64,000 nt of DNA from positions 1 through 64,000 of the forward strand of contig NZ_JZUE01000026.1 in NCBI RefSeq assembly GCF_000969605.1, written 5' to 3'. A model generated the notes under the pieces. The model was not told the DNA's origin, searched no databases, and saw only the letters and a program-made list of their open reading frames with translations. Source of the stretch: Aquincola tertiaricarbonis. Its GTDB lineage: Bacteria; Pseudomonadota; Gammaproteobacteria; Burkholderiales; Burkholderiaceae_C. This document shows, one piece after another, positions 18,431 through 46,336 of the stretch; position 1 is the first letter of the stretch; each line of letters begins with the position of its first letter. The position numbers and the translations under genes are program-made.

Positions 18431-18486
18431 GGCGTTGGCGATCGGTGGGCGACCCTGATTGTAGGCGGGGGGCTGGTAGCATCCGG

Positions 18487-18716
18487 GCCGTTGGTGCCTG
18501 GGTTGCGCTTCGTTGCAGCCCGGGGTAAACGGGAAGCAGGAAGGCACGGCCCCACGGGCCACGCCCAACCTGCGCTGCCCCCGCAACGGTAAGCGGACTG
18601 GATGGTTGATCCGATCAACCATCCCGCGGCGATGCCCTCTGCCACTGGGTTGCCGGCTCATGAGCCTGGCCTGGGAAGGCTGCATCGCCGAATCCGCCAG
18701 CCCGGATACCGGCCAA
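18487..18716 (+). promoter_or_regulatory. Cobalamin (AdoCbl) riboswitch
   Basis: The conserved parts of a B12 riboswitch occur in order: TTGGTGCCTGGG (from 18491), GGGTAAACGGGAAGCAGG (18523-18540), the B12-box core GCTGCCCCCGCAACGGTAAG (from 18574), GCCACTGGGTTGCCGG (from 18641), GGGAAGGCTGC (from 18673) and the closing AGCCCGGATACCGGCC (18699-18714). It lies upstream of btuB on the same strand, so cobalamin should repress btuB and the co-transcribed genes. A GCCATCC/GGGTGGC hairpin follows at 18726-18743 and may be part of the expression platform; no U run is seen, so control of translation is more likely. Confidence 0.93.
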
Positions 18717-18802
18717 CGAGCGGCAGCCATCCTCCAGGGTGGCGGCCATGTCGCAGACGCCCGCGGGGAAGCAGGCGGCTGCCCTTGTCGTTGTGCCCTT
18801 CC

Positions 18803-42492: not shown

Positions 42493-43293
42493 TCAGGCCG
42501 CAGCCTTCTCGACGTGGCCGTGCCGCGTGTACAGGAAGTCCAGCACCTGCTTGCGGTAGTGCACGTATTCCGCGTTCTCGGCCAGCGCCACCCGGTCGCG
42601 CGGGCGCGGCAGGGCGATGGACAGGATCTCGCCGATGGTGGCGGCCGGGCCGTTGGTCATCATCACGATGCGGTCGGACAGCAGCACCGCCTCGTCCACG
42701 TCGTGCGTCACCATCACCACGGTGCTGCGGGTGCGCGCCACGATCTTCAGCAGCTCGTCCTGCAGGTGGGCGCGGGTCAGCGCGTCCAGCGCGCCGAAGG
42801 GCTCGTCCATCAGCAGCACCTTGGGCTCCATGGCCAGCGCACGGGCGATGCCCACGCGCTGCTTCATGCCGCCGCTGATCTCGTGCGGGCGCTTGGCCGT
42901 GGCGTGGGCCATGCCCACCAGTTCCAGCGCCGCCTGGGCACGGGCCTGCAGCTGCGCCTTGGTCTCGCGGCCGCCGAACACCCGCTCCACGCCCAGGTGC
43001 ACGTTCTCCTGGCAGGTGAGCCAGGGCAGCAGCGAATGGTTCTGGAACACCACCGCGCGTTCCGGACCCGGCGCGGCGATCTCGCGGCCGTCGCAGATCA
43101 GCGCGCCGGCGCTGGGCTTGGTCAGCCCGGCGATCAGGTTCAGCAGCGTGCTCTTGCCGCAACCGGAATGGCCGATCAGCGTGATGAACTCGCCCTGGGC
43201 GACCTGCAGGTTGATGTCGCGCAGCGCGTGGAAGCGGCCCTTGCGGGTGTCGAAGACCATCTCGGCCTGTTCCACCTGGATGAATGCGGTCAT
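42493..43293 (-). CDS. nrtD: Nitrate ABC transporter ATP-binding protein
   Basis: A 266-residue ATPase. Walker A GHSGCGKST (near 41), the signature ISGGMKQRVGIARAL (near 140) and Walker B VLLMDEPFGALDALTR are clear. The sequence falls in the nitrate/taurine/sulfonate import branch, and MVTHDVDEAVLLSDRIVMMTNGP is the nitrate type. It has no C-terminal NrtA-like domain, so it is the NrtD rather than NrtC form. It is third in nrtA-nrtB-nrtD. Confidence 0.93.
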   Translation of the reverse strand: MTAFIQVEQAEMVFDTRKGRFHALRDINLQVAQGEFITLIGHSGCGKSTLLNLIAGLTKPSAGALICDGREIAAPGPERAVVFQNHSLLPWLTCQENVHLGVERVFGGRETKAQLQARAQAALELVGMAHATAKRPHEISGGMKQRVGIARALAMEPKVLLMDEPFGALDALTRAHLQDELLKIVARTRSTVVMVTHDVDEAVLLSDRIVMMTNGPAATIGEILSIALPRPRDRVALAENAEYVHYRKQVLDFLYTRHGHVEKAAA

Positions 43294-43309: not shown

Positions 43310-44188
43310 TCAGTGGTCGAAGGAGAAGCGCCGGGCCACCGCCATCAGCAGCTGCTCCAGCAGCAGGCCCACGATGCCGATGACGAAGATGGCGATCAGG
43401 ATGTGCTGAACGTTGAGGTTGTTCCACTCGTCCCACACCCAGAAGCCGATGCCCACGCCGCCGGTCAGCATCTCGGCCGCGACGATCACCAGCCAGGCGG
43501 TGCCCACCGACAGCCGCACGCCGGTGAGCATGTACGGCAGCACGGCCGGGAACAGGATGCGGGTGACCACCTTCCACTCGCTCAGGTCCAGCACCCGAGC
43601 GACGTTCAGGTAGTCCTGCGGCACCCGCTGCACGCCCACCGCGGTGTTGATCACCATCGGCCAGATGGAGCAGATGAAGATGGTCCAGATCGCGGCCGGG
43701 TTGGCGGCCTTGAACACCAGCAGGCCGATGGGCAGCCAGGCCAGCGGCGATACCGGCCGCAGCAGGCTGATCAGCGGGTTGACCATGCGGTTGAGGAACT
43801 CGAAGCGGCCGATGAGAAAGCCCAGCGGAATGCCCACCAGCGCCGCCAGGCCGAAGCCCACGCCCACCCGCTCCAGCGAGAACAGGATGTTCCAGCCGAT
43901 GCCCTGGTCGTTGGGCCCGTTGCTGTAGAACGGGTCGGCGAACAACTTGACCGCCGCCTCGAAGGTGGCCAGCGGCGTGGGAAAGGTGGTGCTGCCCTGG
44001 GTGAGCAAGCCCCACACGCCCACCAGCAGGGCGATGCCCACCACCGGCGGCAGCACCGTCATCCACAGCGCGCGGAAGTCGAACGGCGCGCGCGGCGGGG
44101 CCGGCGGGCGGGCCGGGGCGGATGGCGGCTGGGTGGCCGCCGCAGGAGCGGCTTCCGCCGAAGGCGAATGGAAAACGGCACTGACCAT
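43310..44188 (-). CDS. nrtB: Nitrate ABC transporter permease
   Basis: A 292-residue inner-membrane permease with about six helices of the BPD_transp_1 type and the EAA-like loop in VARVLDLSEWKVVTRILFPAVLP. The N-terminal 40 residues are alanine/proline-rich and cytoplasmic. The ATG at 44188 is chosen because AAGGAAG lies directly upstream; a further in-frame ATG at 44266 would run into nrtA. It pairs with the ATPase gene 16 bases downstream. Confidence 0.93.
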   Translation of the reverse strand: MVSAVFHSPSAEAAPAAATQPPSAPARPPAPPRAPFDFRALWMTVLPPVVGIALLVGVWGLLTQGSTTFPTPLATFEAAVKLFADPFYSNGPNDQGIGWNILFSLERVGVGFGLAALVGIPLGFLIGRFEFLNRMVNPLISLLRPVSPLAWLPIGLLVFKAANPAAIWTIFICSIWPMVINTAVGVQRVPQDYLNVARVLDLSEWKVVTRILFPAVLPYMLTGVRLSVGTAWLVIVAAEMLTGGVGIGFWVWDEWNNLNVQHILIAIFVIGIVGLLLEQLLMAVARRFSFDH

Positions 44189-44208
44189 GATGCTTCCTTG
44201 GTGACCGC

Positions 44209-45468
44209 TCACGCGGCCTTGATCTTGAAGCCGTCGGCGTACTTGGCCGGCTCCTTGCCATCCCACACCACGCCGTCGATCAGCTTGCTGCTGCGCATGG
44301 CGTCCTTGGGCACGCTGATCTTCATCGCGCTGGCCACTTGCCTATACAAGTCGACCTGGTTGATCTGCTTGGCCACGCCCAGGTAGTCCGGGTGCTCGCG
44401 CAGCAGGCCCCAGCGCTTGTGCTGGGTGAGGAACCACATGCCGTCCGACAGGTACGGGAAGTTCACCGCGCCGTCGTTGAAGAACTTCATGTGGTTGGGG
44501 TCGTCCCAGGTCTTGCCCATGCCGTCCTGGTAGCGGCCCAGGATGCGCTGGTTGATCGCGTCGACATTGGTGTTGACGTAGCTCTTGTCGGCCACGGTCT
44601 CGGCCATCTTCAGCTTGTTCTGCAGGCTGGCGTCGATCCAGCGGCTGGCTTCCAGCACGGCCATCATCACCGCGCGGGTGGTGTTGGGGTACTTCTTGGT
44701 GAACTCGCCGGTGGTGCCCAGCACCTTCTCCGGGTGGTCCTTCCAGATGTCCTGCGTGGTCACGGCGGTGATGCCGATGCCGTCCATGATGGCGCGGTGG
44801 CCCCAGGGCTCGCCCACGCAGTAGCCGTCCATGTTGCCCACGCGCATGTTGGCCACCATCTGCGGCGGCGGCACGGTGATGACCTTGGCGTCCTTCATGG
44901 GGTTGATGCCCACGCTGGCCATCCAGTAGTACAGCCACATGGCGTGGGTGCCGGTGGGGAAGGTCTGCGCGAAGGTGTAGTCGCGCTTTTCCGCCGCCAT
45001 GGCCTTGGCCAGCGAGGCGCCGTCCACCGCGCCCTTGTCGGCCAGCTTCTTCGACAGCGTGATGGCCTGGCCGTTGTTGTTCAGGGTCATGAGCACGGCC
45101 ATGTCCTTGCCCTTGTTGCCCGGCATGCCCACGCCCAGGTGCACGCCGTAGATCAGGCCGTACAGCACATGCGCCATGTCCAGCTCGCCGTTGACCAGCT
45201 TGTCGCGCACGCCCGCCCAGGAGGCTTCCTTGGTGGGGATGATCTTCACGCCGTACTTCTTGTCGAAGCCCAGCACCGAGGCCATCACCACCGACGCGCA
45301 GTCGGTCAGCGGGATGAAGCCGATGCGCACTTCCTCCTTCTCGGGCTTGTCGGAGCCCTGCGCGTACACGGCGGTGTTGAGGCCGGGCACGACGCCCGCG
45401 GCCGTGGTGGCTGCGGCGGCGGCGACGAGGTTGCGGCGTCCCATGTTGATCTGATCCTTGGCTGGCAT
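44209..45468 (-). CDS. nrtA: Nitrate ABC transporter substrate-binding protein
   Basis: A 419-residue binding protein of the NrtA/CmpA family. A signal sequence with twin arginines (MGRRNLVAAAAATTAAG, R11-R12) suggests Tat-type export to the periplasm. The mature part has IGFIPLTDCASVVMA, FPTGTHAMWLYYWMAS, MDGYCVGEPWGHRAI and WKDHPEKVLGTTGEF, the typical nitrate/bicarbonate binding-protein segments. The exported form argues for transport rather than for the cytoplasmic sensor NasS. A long leader with a sigma-54 promoter and antitermination elements precedes it. Confidence 0.93.
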   Translation of the reverse strand: MPAKDQINMGRRNLVAAAAATTAAGVVPGLNTAVYAQGSDKPEKEEVRIGFIPLTDCASVVMASVLGFDKKYGVKIIPTKEASWAGVRDKLVNGELDMAHVLYGLIYGVHLGVGMPGNKGKDMAVLMTLNNNGQAITLSKKLADKGAVDGASLAKAMAAEKRDYTFAQTFPTGTHAMWLYYWMASVGINPMKDAKVITVPPPQMVANMRVGNMDGYCVGEPWGHRAIMDGIGITAVTTQDIWKDHPEKVLGTTGEFTKKYPNTTRAVMMAVLEASRWIDASLQNKLKMAETVADKSYVNTNVDAINQRILGRYQDGMGKTWDDPNHMKFFNDGAVNFPYLSDGMWFLTQHKRWGLLREHPDYLGVAKQINQVDLYRQVASAMKISVPKDAMRSSKLIDGVVWDGKEPAKYADGFKIKAA

Positions 45469-45502
45469 GTGGTCCCCGATGCTGACAGGCTGAAAGGCAA
45501 AA

Positions 45503-45556
45503 CAAAAAGGCGTCCCTCACAGGCCCCGGGCTTCGCCTCGGGGTGTGGGGGACGCC
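45503..45556 (-). terminator. Leader terminator (attenuator) ahead of nrtA
   Basis: On the minus strand, GGCGTCC pairs with GGACGCC across a larger structured loop containing CCCCGAGGCG and CCCGGGGCC, and is followed by TTTTTGTTTTG. It lies 34 bases before the nrtA ATG, so it would stop transcription unless antitermination occurs. Together with the two upstream hexaloop hairpins this is the standard layout of a NasT- or NasR-controlled leader. Confidence 0.8.
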
Positions 45557-45575
45557 TTCGTCCTTGTCTCGTGCC

Positions 45576-45625
45576 GCGCCAACGCTGGCGCACCACGATG
45601 TGTTCAGGAGATCGCCGTTGACCTC
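45576..45625 (-). promoter_or_regulatory. ANTAR-target RNA: two hexaloop hairpins in the nrtA leader
   Basis: Hairpin 1 (45608-45625, minus strand) is GAGGTC-AACGGC-GATCTC and hairpin 2 (45576-45591) is GCGCC-AGCGTT-GGCGC. Both loops have six bases with A at position 1 and G at position 4, the feature described for RNAs recognised by ANTAR proteins. A 16-base linker joins them, and the terminator begins 19 bases further on. Hairpin 1 starts about six bases after the predicted sigma-54 start site. Binding of NasT should allow read-through into nrtABD. Confidence 0.8.
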
Positions 45626-45641
45626 TTGCTGCGCTACAAAA

Positions 45642-45657
45642 CGCAAGCGCCGTGCCA
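45642..45657 (-). promoter_or_regulatory. Sigma-54 (-24/-12) promoter of nrtABD
   Basis: The minus strand reads TGGCACGGCGCTTGCG, matching TGGCACG-N4-TTGC fully. It lies just after the nasT stop, and the -12 C at 45643 predicts a start near 45631. nrtABD therefore has its own nitrogen-controlled promoter although nasT is upstream on the same strand. Activator binding sites would fall within nasT and were not identified. Confidence 0.85.
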
Positions 45658-45697
45658 GCGAAATCGCCCCGGCTTGGTGCCGCAGCGGCTTGCTTGT

Positions 45698-46336
45698 CTA
45701 GCCAAGCAGGTCGGACACGTCGACGATGCGCTGGGCCACGTCGGCCAGCTTCAGGCCCTTGTCCATCGCCGTCTTGCGCAGCCGCGCATAGGCTTCTTCC
45801 TCGGGGATGCCCTGGCGCTTCATCAGGATGCCCTTGGCCCGCTCGATCACCTTGCGCTCGCTGAGCTGGCTGCGGGCTTCGGCCAGGTCCTGGCGCAGGC
45901 GCTCCTCATGCTCGAAGCGCGCCAGCGCGATGTCGAGCACCGGCTTGATGCGCTCGGACGCCAGCCCGGCCACCACGTAGGCGGTGACGCCGGCGGCAAT
46001 GGCGTCGCGCACATGGGTGGTGTCCTCGTCGTCGGTGAACAGCACGATGGGCCGGCGGGCATCGCGCGTGGCCATCACCACGTGCTCCAGCGTGTCGCGG
46101 GCCTGGCTCTCGGCATCCACCACGATCATGTCGGGCTGGATCTGGGCCAGCCGGTCGGGGAGGAAGACGTCCACCGGCAGCACCGCCACGATGTTGTAGC
46201 CCGCCTCCAGCAGGCCGATGCGCAGGCTGCGCGAGCGCTCGGCCTCCCACCAGGCATCCACGTCGTTCGGCTCGGGAGACAGCGACTCCGGCGCGACGAT
46301 GACGATGCGCAAGGGCGACGGGGGCGGCGACGGCAT
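45698..46336 (-). CDS. nasT: ANTAR-domain antiterminator NasT
   Basis: A 212-residue response-regulator-like protein. A pseudo-receiver domain (about 10-140, with [14 protein letters not shown] in the place of the phosphorylated aspartate) is joined to a C-terminal ANTAR RNA-binding domain (about 150-212). The ANTAR part reads [20 protein letters not shown], then [20 protein letters not shown]. NasT reads through leader terminators of nitrate genes when not held by NasS. The gene is directly upstream of an nrt leader with matching hairpins. It is divergent from tsaD by 57 bases. No nasS is visible. Confidence 0.92.

Follow-up and report, generated by a model that had tools for sequence, protein, structure and literature searches.

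The minus-strand gap between the nasT stop codon, which ends at position 45698, and the nrtA start at 45468 most probably contains an ANTAR antitermination leader with a sigma-54 promoter that controls the nrtA-ntrB-nrtD operon. Read from its sequence, this leader would be bound by the ANTAR protein at two hairpins (H1 and H2), with a third (H3) competing against an intrinsic terminator. All positions refer to the window, the whole stretch of 64,000 nucleotides that was analyzed.

Pfam and NCBIfam profiles confirmed the gene identities at this locus, where all four genes lie on the minus strand. The nasT gene (45698-46336, with an inferred start codon) encodes a 212-aa pseudo-receiver and ANTAR RNA-binding protein (Pfam ANTAR, E 1.1e-22), and nrtA (44209-45468) a nitrate-type ABC substrate-binding protein (Pfam NMT1_2, E 6.7e-100) whose N terminus, MGRRNLVAAAA, resembles a Tat signal by eye. 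They are accompanied by ntrB (43310-44266, start codon uncertain), a nitrate ABC permease (TIGR01183, 251.6 bits), and nrtD (42493-43293), a nitrate ABC ATPase (TIGR01184, 343 bits), both scoring above the model cut-off. Elsewhere the window holds a cobalamin riboswitch (18475-18731, plus strand; 68.7 bits, above the Rfam gathering score); Rfam matches to ctRNA_p42d, P11 and mir-608 were below threshold and were taken as chance.

The predicted promoter gate is a sigma-54 element, TGGCACGGCGCTTGCG (45642-45657, minus strand), which begins 40 nt past the end of the nasT stop and carries the GG and GC elements at the correct spacing. Sigma-54 is present in the genome, which has three Sigma54_DBD genes. 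The TGGCA and the -12 GC of the box are invariant in 19 aligned leaders, for which the box was a row selection criterion. From this box, transcription is predicted to start near 45631, putting H1 at about +7. A candidate enhancer, the NtrC-type half-site GCACCAA (45674-45680, minus strand), starts 23 nt before the box. When TTGGTGC, GCACCAA and their one-base shifts are counted, 57 of 101 related leaders carry a half-site no more than 150 nt ahead of the box, against 6.1 expected from shuffles, and these upstream motifs suggest NtrC activation of the nrtA operon.

Downstream of the box, the minus strand encodes three hairpins and a terminator. H1, GAGGTC[AACGGC]GATCTC (45608-45625), and H2, GCGCC[AGCGTT]GGCGC (core 45591-45576), are identified by sequence and covariation, and both have A1/G4 loops on C-G closing pairs. 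An outer stem, CGTG/CACG, extends H2 to 45570-45597 and leaves it clear of the terminator. H3, GGAC[GAAGGC]GTCC (45550-45563), has G1 in place of A1 and overlaps the 5' arm of the terminator (45558-45507, with a U tract to 45501); both elements are identified by folding and covariation. Since the right arm of H3 is part of the left arm of the terminator, the two cannot coexist. When the leader is cut at H3, all three hairpins fold (pair probabilities 0.98-1.0); at full length it folds as H1, H2 and the terminator, with H3 replaced. The leader fold is more stable than that of shuffled sequence (z -4.8). One prediction counts against our best explanation, namely the A1-U6 closure that the folding program gives for the H2 loop AGCGTT.

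The leader can be compared with the ANTAR class, in which the second hexaloop overlaps the terminator (PMC3369931; PMC8934654) and, in the dual-hexaloop leaders of the Enterococcus faecalis eut genes described by Ramesh 2012, linkers measure 5-12 nt. It has a C-G-closed A1/G4 hexaloop pair (H1 AACGGC, H2 AGCGTT), in agreement with the NasR SELEX consensus of C-G closing pairs and A1/G4 loops (PMC7496416). Its H1-H2 (10 nt) and H2-H3 (6 nt) linkers are short as in that class, whereas H1 and H3 alone are 44 nt apart. The terminator is overlapped by H3, with its G1 instead of A1, and not by H2. Because the published rule has the second hexaloop overlapping the terminator, H3 takes the positional role of P2, which makes H2 an additional linker hairpin. 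The genome has three ANTAR genes, one of them adjoining the leader.

An earlier note, made from the window alone, had listed the sigma-54 element at 45642-45657, hairpins with loops AACGGC (45608-45625) and AGCGTT (45576-45591), a terminator at 45503-45556 and NasT encoded directly upstream, and each of these elements is indeed there, the terminator with the bounds given above and nasT confirmed by its ANTAR profile match. Its hairpin list was incomplete, with H3 (45563-45550), the hairpin that overlaps the terminator, overlooked. Its appeal to the rule of a hexaloop pair plus terminator was right about the type of leader, but its second hairpin, H2, misses the terminator and is not the P2 of that rule.

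We propose the following mechanism. Under nitrogen limitation, an NtrC-type activator would start transcription at the sigma-54 box, near 45631, and RNA polymerase would produce H1, H2 and H3 one after the other. The default outcome would be a folded terminator and a stop to transcription. Active NasT, or another ANTAR protein such as a NIT-ANTAR protein resembling NasR, would bind the emerging hexaloops of H1 and H2 and stay beside the polymerase; H3 would then form in place of the terminator, allowing read-through into nrtABD. With H2 as an additional hexaloop, neighboring hairpins would be 6-10 nt apart instead of being separated by the full H1-H3 distance. In the clade of the window, A1 of H3 would have given way to G1 and a G1-C6 pair would close the loop, leaving H3 with terminator competition only. 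Recognition therefore probably falls on H1 and H2, because G1 of H3 can pair with C6.

Comparative evidence for the leader is far stronger than anything the window statistics offer. From an alignment of 19 related leaders of the window's clade (A1) we derived a covariance model (R1); alignment and model include 19 of the 20 leaders with G1 in H3, L114 being excluded by choice. R1 scores the window leader at 114.3 bits and the rest of the 6.3-Mb genome at 22 bits or less, and a pattern of box plus H1 has a single match in the genome, the window leader. Candidates for a second leader in this genome were rejected: weak R1 matches at C24 (22 bits) and C5 (11.9 bits) occur without hexaloops and terminator, a third weak match is the other strand of the terminator, and the region before the genome's own nirB-nasR has a weak box, one weak hexaloop and no terminator. 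Among 250 family genomes, R1 matches 118, of which 85 also have a NasT match (some of these being NIT-ANTAR-like frames), and, counting against the best explanation, 43 of the 128 NasT-positive family genomes are without an R1 match. A covariance search for ANTAR RNAs had been suggested as a check on the leader, and it came out in its favor: the stems covary, and among 80 nasT loci from named genomes 78 have an R1 match, which lies downstream of nasT at a median of 113 nt (at most 251 nt in 76 loci, 585 and 1247 nt in the two others). These 80 loci were fetched separately and carry names including Methylibium, Azohydromonas, Caldimonas, Rhizobacter, Rubrivivax, Herminiimonas, Herbaspirillum and Undibacterium; some R1 training genomes are also in the 250-genome and 80-locus test sets.

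On A1, the three hairpins together have 96.3% of cells paired and double-sided changes in 9 of 15 pairs, compared with 36-53% paired and at most 4 such pairs in a slid-partner control. With the terminator swapped for H3, 91.4% of cells are paired and 11 of 21 pairs have changed on both sides. Taken singly, H1 is paired in 93% of cells (double-sided changes in 3 of 6 pairs) and H3 in 100% (2 of 4 pairs, with G4 invariant in the 19 rows), and the terminator shows double-sided changes in 4 of 10 pairs. H2 is the fairest test, because our leader parser demanded the stems of H1 and H3 and not that of H2: its core is 97.6% paired, 4 of 5 pairs have changed on both sides, and the C-G closing pair is kept in 19 of 19 rows. 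Of two alphaproteobacterial reference loci, L182 has a sigma-54 box and terminator in its nasS-nrtA gap, together with hairpins that resemble H1, H2 and H3 by eye, and a scan of the nasS-nrtA gap of L183 gave no such leader.

Parsing a wider set of leaders revealed two linker classes. The set held 149 leaders, from 119 NasT loci and 30 narK-RNA loci. To be parsed, a leader had to show a sigma-54 box and a terminator, an H1 carrying A1/G4 with 4 or more pairs, and an H3 carrying G4 with 3 or more pairs and a set 5' arm ending; H2 was optional. These criteria bias the pairing figures of H1 and H3 upward. They yielded 102 parsed leaders (76 of the 119 NasT loci and 26 of the 30 narK loci); the 47 that did not fit count against the best explanation. 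Linker length between H1 and H3 is bimodal across the 102, with 0-20 nt in 37 leaders, 27-68 nt in 65 and none between. Three duplicate pairs (L045/L080, L046/L089 and L060/L074) are all short-linker, and removing the repeats reduces the short class to 34 of 99. H1 has a C-G closing pair in all 102 parsed leaders, which the parser did not demand. The best hairpin of the long linker is of the A1/G4 hexaloop type in 49 of 65 leaders, against a mean of 1.2 and a maximum of 4 in mononucleotide shuffles, and any such hairpin is present in 52 of 65; the 16 whose best hairpin is not A1/G4 count against the best explanation, and of these L168-L170 and L172 have a wholly different loop.

The first base of the H3 loop varies as well. 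In many relatives H3 reads GGAC[AAAGGC]GTCC at the same place. G1 occurs in 20 of 102 leaders, all 20 of them long-linker, whereas the A1 leaders are long in 45 of 82 (Fisher 4.5e-5, uncorrected for kinship and the three repeats). On the NasT tree (76 rows) the first base of H3 needs at least five changes and the linker class seven, and only 2-3 supported independent pairs are left, too few to carry the association beyond kinship, which counts against the best explanation. Because all 20 G1 loops end in C6, each can close to a tetraloop, and folding gives -6.0 kcal/mol for the closed H3 against -4.0. EutV is described as making base-specific contact to G4 only and none to A1, whose suggested role is to hold the loop open (PMC8934654); this suggests that H3 in the window's clade is no longer a recognition hexaloop, and that H1 and H2 may be the true recognition site there, with H3 predicted to be closed by G1. 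The same source describes a 20-nt longer linker as abolishing EutV antitermination (PMC8934654), which fits a need for H2.

These data also bear on a simpler reading, which we regard as rather unlikely, that H1 and H3 form the binding site as an ordinary dual motif, H2 being a mere spacer that folds the linker and G1 being tolerated because only G4 is read. The restriction of EutV contact to G4 would suit it, as would the presence of H3 in all 19 aligned rows with complete pairing and an invariant G4, albeit for a hairpin that the parser demanded, and the linker hairpins without A1/G4 in some relatives (e.g., L112 and L168-L172). However, a pure spacer needs neither the A1/G4 hexaloop that H2 shows so far above the shuffle mean nor the C-G closing pair found throughout the alignment, and the G1-C6 pair is possible in 20 of 20 G1 leaders, turning the hexaloop into the more stable tetraloop. 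We retain H1 and H2 as the probable bound pair.

By sequence, the NasT of the window matches the solved ANTAR proteins 6wsh (E 2.4e-17), 4akk and 1qo0, which are EutV, NasR and AmiR. In an alignment read by eye, the EutV residues that hold G4 (Arg142, Lys149, Glu160 and Tyr164) and the Met172 plug, as named in the structure paper (PMC8934654), are identical in the window NasT, and Lys147 is replaced by Arg. Counting against our best explanation, EutV Asn173, Arg175 and Arg177 correspond to Asp, Gly and Lys, and their joint change to alanine is described as abolishing EutV binding (PMC8934654). The receiver-like domain has a 16-residue insert after its first beta strand, common to several relatives and missing from others; the idea that the insert accompanies NasS loss was rejected, as in L035 a NasT with the insert has a NasS-like neighbor.

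NasS is described as keeping NasT inactive until nitrate is present (PMC3795266), and at the window locus there is none. Genome-wide, only two proteins match NMT1_2 above 60 bits: NrtA itself and, on contig 7, the binding protein of another transporter. By eye both look exported, and no NasS was found in this search. By comparison, nasS sits between nasT and nrtA in the two alphaproteobacterial reference loci, and NasS-like genes adjoin nasT in L035, L053 and L058, from other families. In the stretches of 3.1-8.6 kb covering the 80 named nasT loci, NasS is the best match of just two ORFs, both starting with a Tat-like signal; NasS-like ORFs behind nrtA in L124, L139, L167, L171, L250 and L283 were rejected as NasS on their export-signal-like N termini. 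The earlier note had predicted a double gate of NtrC-type activation and NasT read-through. An ANTAR-type leader behind a sigma-54 promoter, and with it two-gate control, is supported by sequence and comparison. With NasS missing from the locus and apparently from the genome, NasT read-through would lack its known nitrate sensor here, which counts against the best explanation.

Nitrate sensing could instead be supplied by a second candidate regulator, a NasR-like NIT-ANTAR protein encoded behind nirB on contig 6. One could go further and suppose that this protein, and not the adjacent NasT lacking a sensor partner, is the main reader of the leader, a reading we consider unlikely. In its favor, the protein has both domains (NIT, E 1.9e-44, plus ANTAR), and NasS is absent here. 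The ANTAR search took in 80 of the 118 NasT-negative genomes, comprising all 33 that are R1-positive and 47 of the 85 others. In the R1-positive group, 30 of 33 family genomes have an ANTAR gene, in 20 within 700 bp of the leader, and a NIT domain precedes ANTAR in 8 of 8 proteins checked. NIT-ANTAR proteins thus plausibly read the same leader, which appears to serve ANTAR proteins of two kinds. Against their being the main reader here, the adjacent gene is nasT, most R1-positive genomes have a NasT match (85 of 118, some of them NIT-ANTAR-like frames), and ANTAR genes are frequent even where the leader is missing, occurring in 24 of the 47 R1-negative, NasT-negative genomes. In this organism the reader may be NasT, the NIT-ANTAR protein or both. 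Two further observations concern these proteins. On contig C6 of the genome itself, L027 (4037-8443, plus strand) has a nirB-type nitrite reductase gene with the NIT-ANTAR regulator gene behind it and no recognizable ANTAR leader upstream. In several family genomes, among them G510, G448, G557, G584 and G587, a second NasT-like match (about 31-40% identical) shares the contig with nasT at a distance of 12-36 kb; the frames concerned, 430-560 aa long, are possibly NIT-ANTAR.

Within the window, A1/G4 hexaloop pairs (stems of at least 5 bp, gap of at most 45) number 2, against 0.15 per dinucleotide shuffle in 20 shuffles. A hexaloop pair with a strict sigma-54 box, the terminator not being demanded, occurs once against 0.05 (1 of 20 shuffles). 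Strict boxes by themselves number 6 against 1.85 expected, and the window alone is therefore moderate evidence only. That the gap is a chance mix of a nasT terminator and an unrelated nrtA promoter before or after it is scarcely credible, for while a terminator between two same-strand genes and a box that is one of six strict matches would allow it, the order, covariation and adjacency are conserved and the terminator lies downstream of the promoter, within the nrtA leader.

The same architecture appears to underlie the Rfam family narK RNA (RF03032), which on sequence grounds appears to be a sigma-54 promoter with ANTAR hairpins. The family presumably stems from a comparative RNA-motif study. 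Its consensus holds GGCaCA...UUGCU, that is, the sigma-54 box, and a hairpin with the hexaloop AACGGC; it also holds ACGACAAAGACGUCGC, an H3-like CGAC[AAAGAC]GUCG hexaloop that is left unpaired in the Rfam structure. The model is without the H2-bearing linker of the window leader, which scores 25.6 bits against RF03032, short of the 43.2 bits set for gathering, and was rejected as a member. Searched across the order, narK RNA occurs in 45 of 399 genomes at E 0.001, three of them above the gathering score. All 45 have an ANTAR gene, 14 by NasT match and 31 by the ANTAR model, compared with 8 of 19 controls lacking a narK match; gene and match are no more than 700 bp apart in 29 of 45 and no more than 7 kb apart in 11 others, and in the last 5 the gene is elsewhere. 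Among the 150 genomes searched for NasT, it is present in 14 of 15 narK-positive against 43 of 135 narK-negative genomes. We fetched and read 30 of the 45 matches by eye, and they precede nrtA, nirB and narK genes and a few others. No paper naming RF03032 was found in the literature searched, and a paper beyond that scope may already draw the Rfam link.

A broader picture, to which we give somewhat less than even confidence, would apply to a whole class of nitrate leaders in Burkholderiales: a three-hexaloop relay in which the middle hairpin takes over ANTAR recognition and H3 becomes a tetraloop, operated by a NasT without NasS, with or without a NIT-ANTAR protein, and in which RF03032 would be a sigma-54 promoter with ANTAR hexaloops and not a ligand-binding RNA.

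ANTAR antitermination behind a sigma-54 promoter is itself known. The Klebsiella oxytoca nasF leader is sigma-54-dependent. Like the window leader, nasF serves nitrate assimilation and has, ahead of an intrinsic terminator, an ANTAR site of two hairpins whose A1/G4 loops are closed by C:G pairs (PMC7496416), and it is described as under general nitrogen control by NtrC (PMC5424462). Its NasR has its own nitrate sensor, NIT, whereas the window leader has an adjacent NasT and a third hairpin. The Paracoccus denitrificans nasA leader likewise has a NasT-type ANTAR gene just upstream, and its hairpins are described as needed for expression (PMC3795266, PMC5424462). There, nasS follows nasT; the window locus has no nasS and a NasT with the receiver insert. 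Of the NasS-NasT system, the genome searched has a NasT with its ANTAR domain and yielded no NasS, the cytoplasmic sensor that resembles NrtA. The E. faecalis eut leaders resemble the window leader in hexaloop hairpins of which the last overlaps the terminator, and in the G4-binding residues of EutV (PMC3369931, PMC8934654), but have two hexaloops, both A1, whereas the window leader has three hairpins and G1 in the one that overlaps. In Bradyrhizobium diazoefficiens, NasT hairpins have already been predicted in print in the narK leader, as well as those of nirA, coxS and bjgb (PMC6759348). Deletion of nasT there is described as raising narK expression, not lowering it, and the available text of that paper shows no link to the Rfam narK RNA (PMC6759348). 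The narK result counts against our best explanation and, with the changed Asn173, Arg175 and Arg177 positions, slightly lowers our confidence in it. As far as our searches show, what is new is the three-hexaloop long-linker class, the altered H3, a NasT without NasS and an explanation for the Rfam family.

A model of handover from recruitment to antitermination hairpin has been proposed from the EutV structure (PMC8934654), and the two- and three-hexaloop classes amount to a natural experiment on that handover by the ANTAR dimer. NasT without NasS raises the testable question of how nitrate is sensed. The narK-RNA link offers a function and a protein partner for an unexplained Rfam family, and with narK RNA tied to ANTAR its matches become usable for mapping nitrate regulons; genes seen behind such leaders are nrtA, nirB, narK and a formate/nitrite transporter. 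The last is found in L222 (1420-2408, plus strand; congener G473), where a second leader with a sigma-54 box, AAAGGC hairpin and terminator precedes the transporter gene (Form_Nir_trans, E 3.3e-63). L226 (G581) has three leaders within 10 kb, at about 1165, 4517 and 7849 on the plus strand; the genes behind them, judged by eye, are nrtA, one for a NarK-like transporter, and nirB. Outside nitrate uptake, leaders of the narK-RNA type lie before a frame resembling an EAL-type signaling protein in L087 (1470-2880, plus strand) and before a short frame resembling a winged-helix regulator in L068 (minus strand), both judged by eye.
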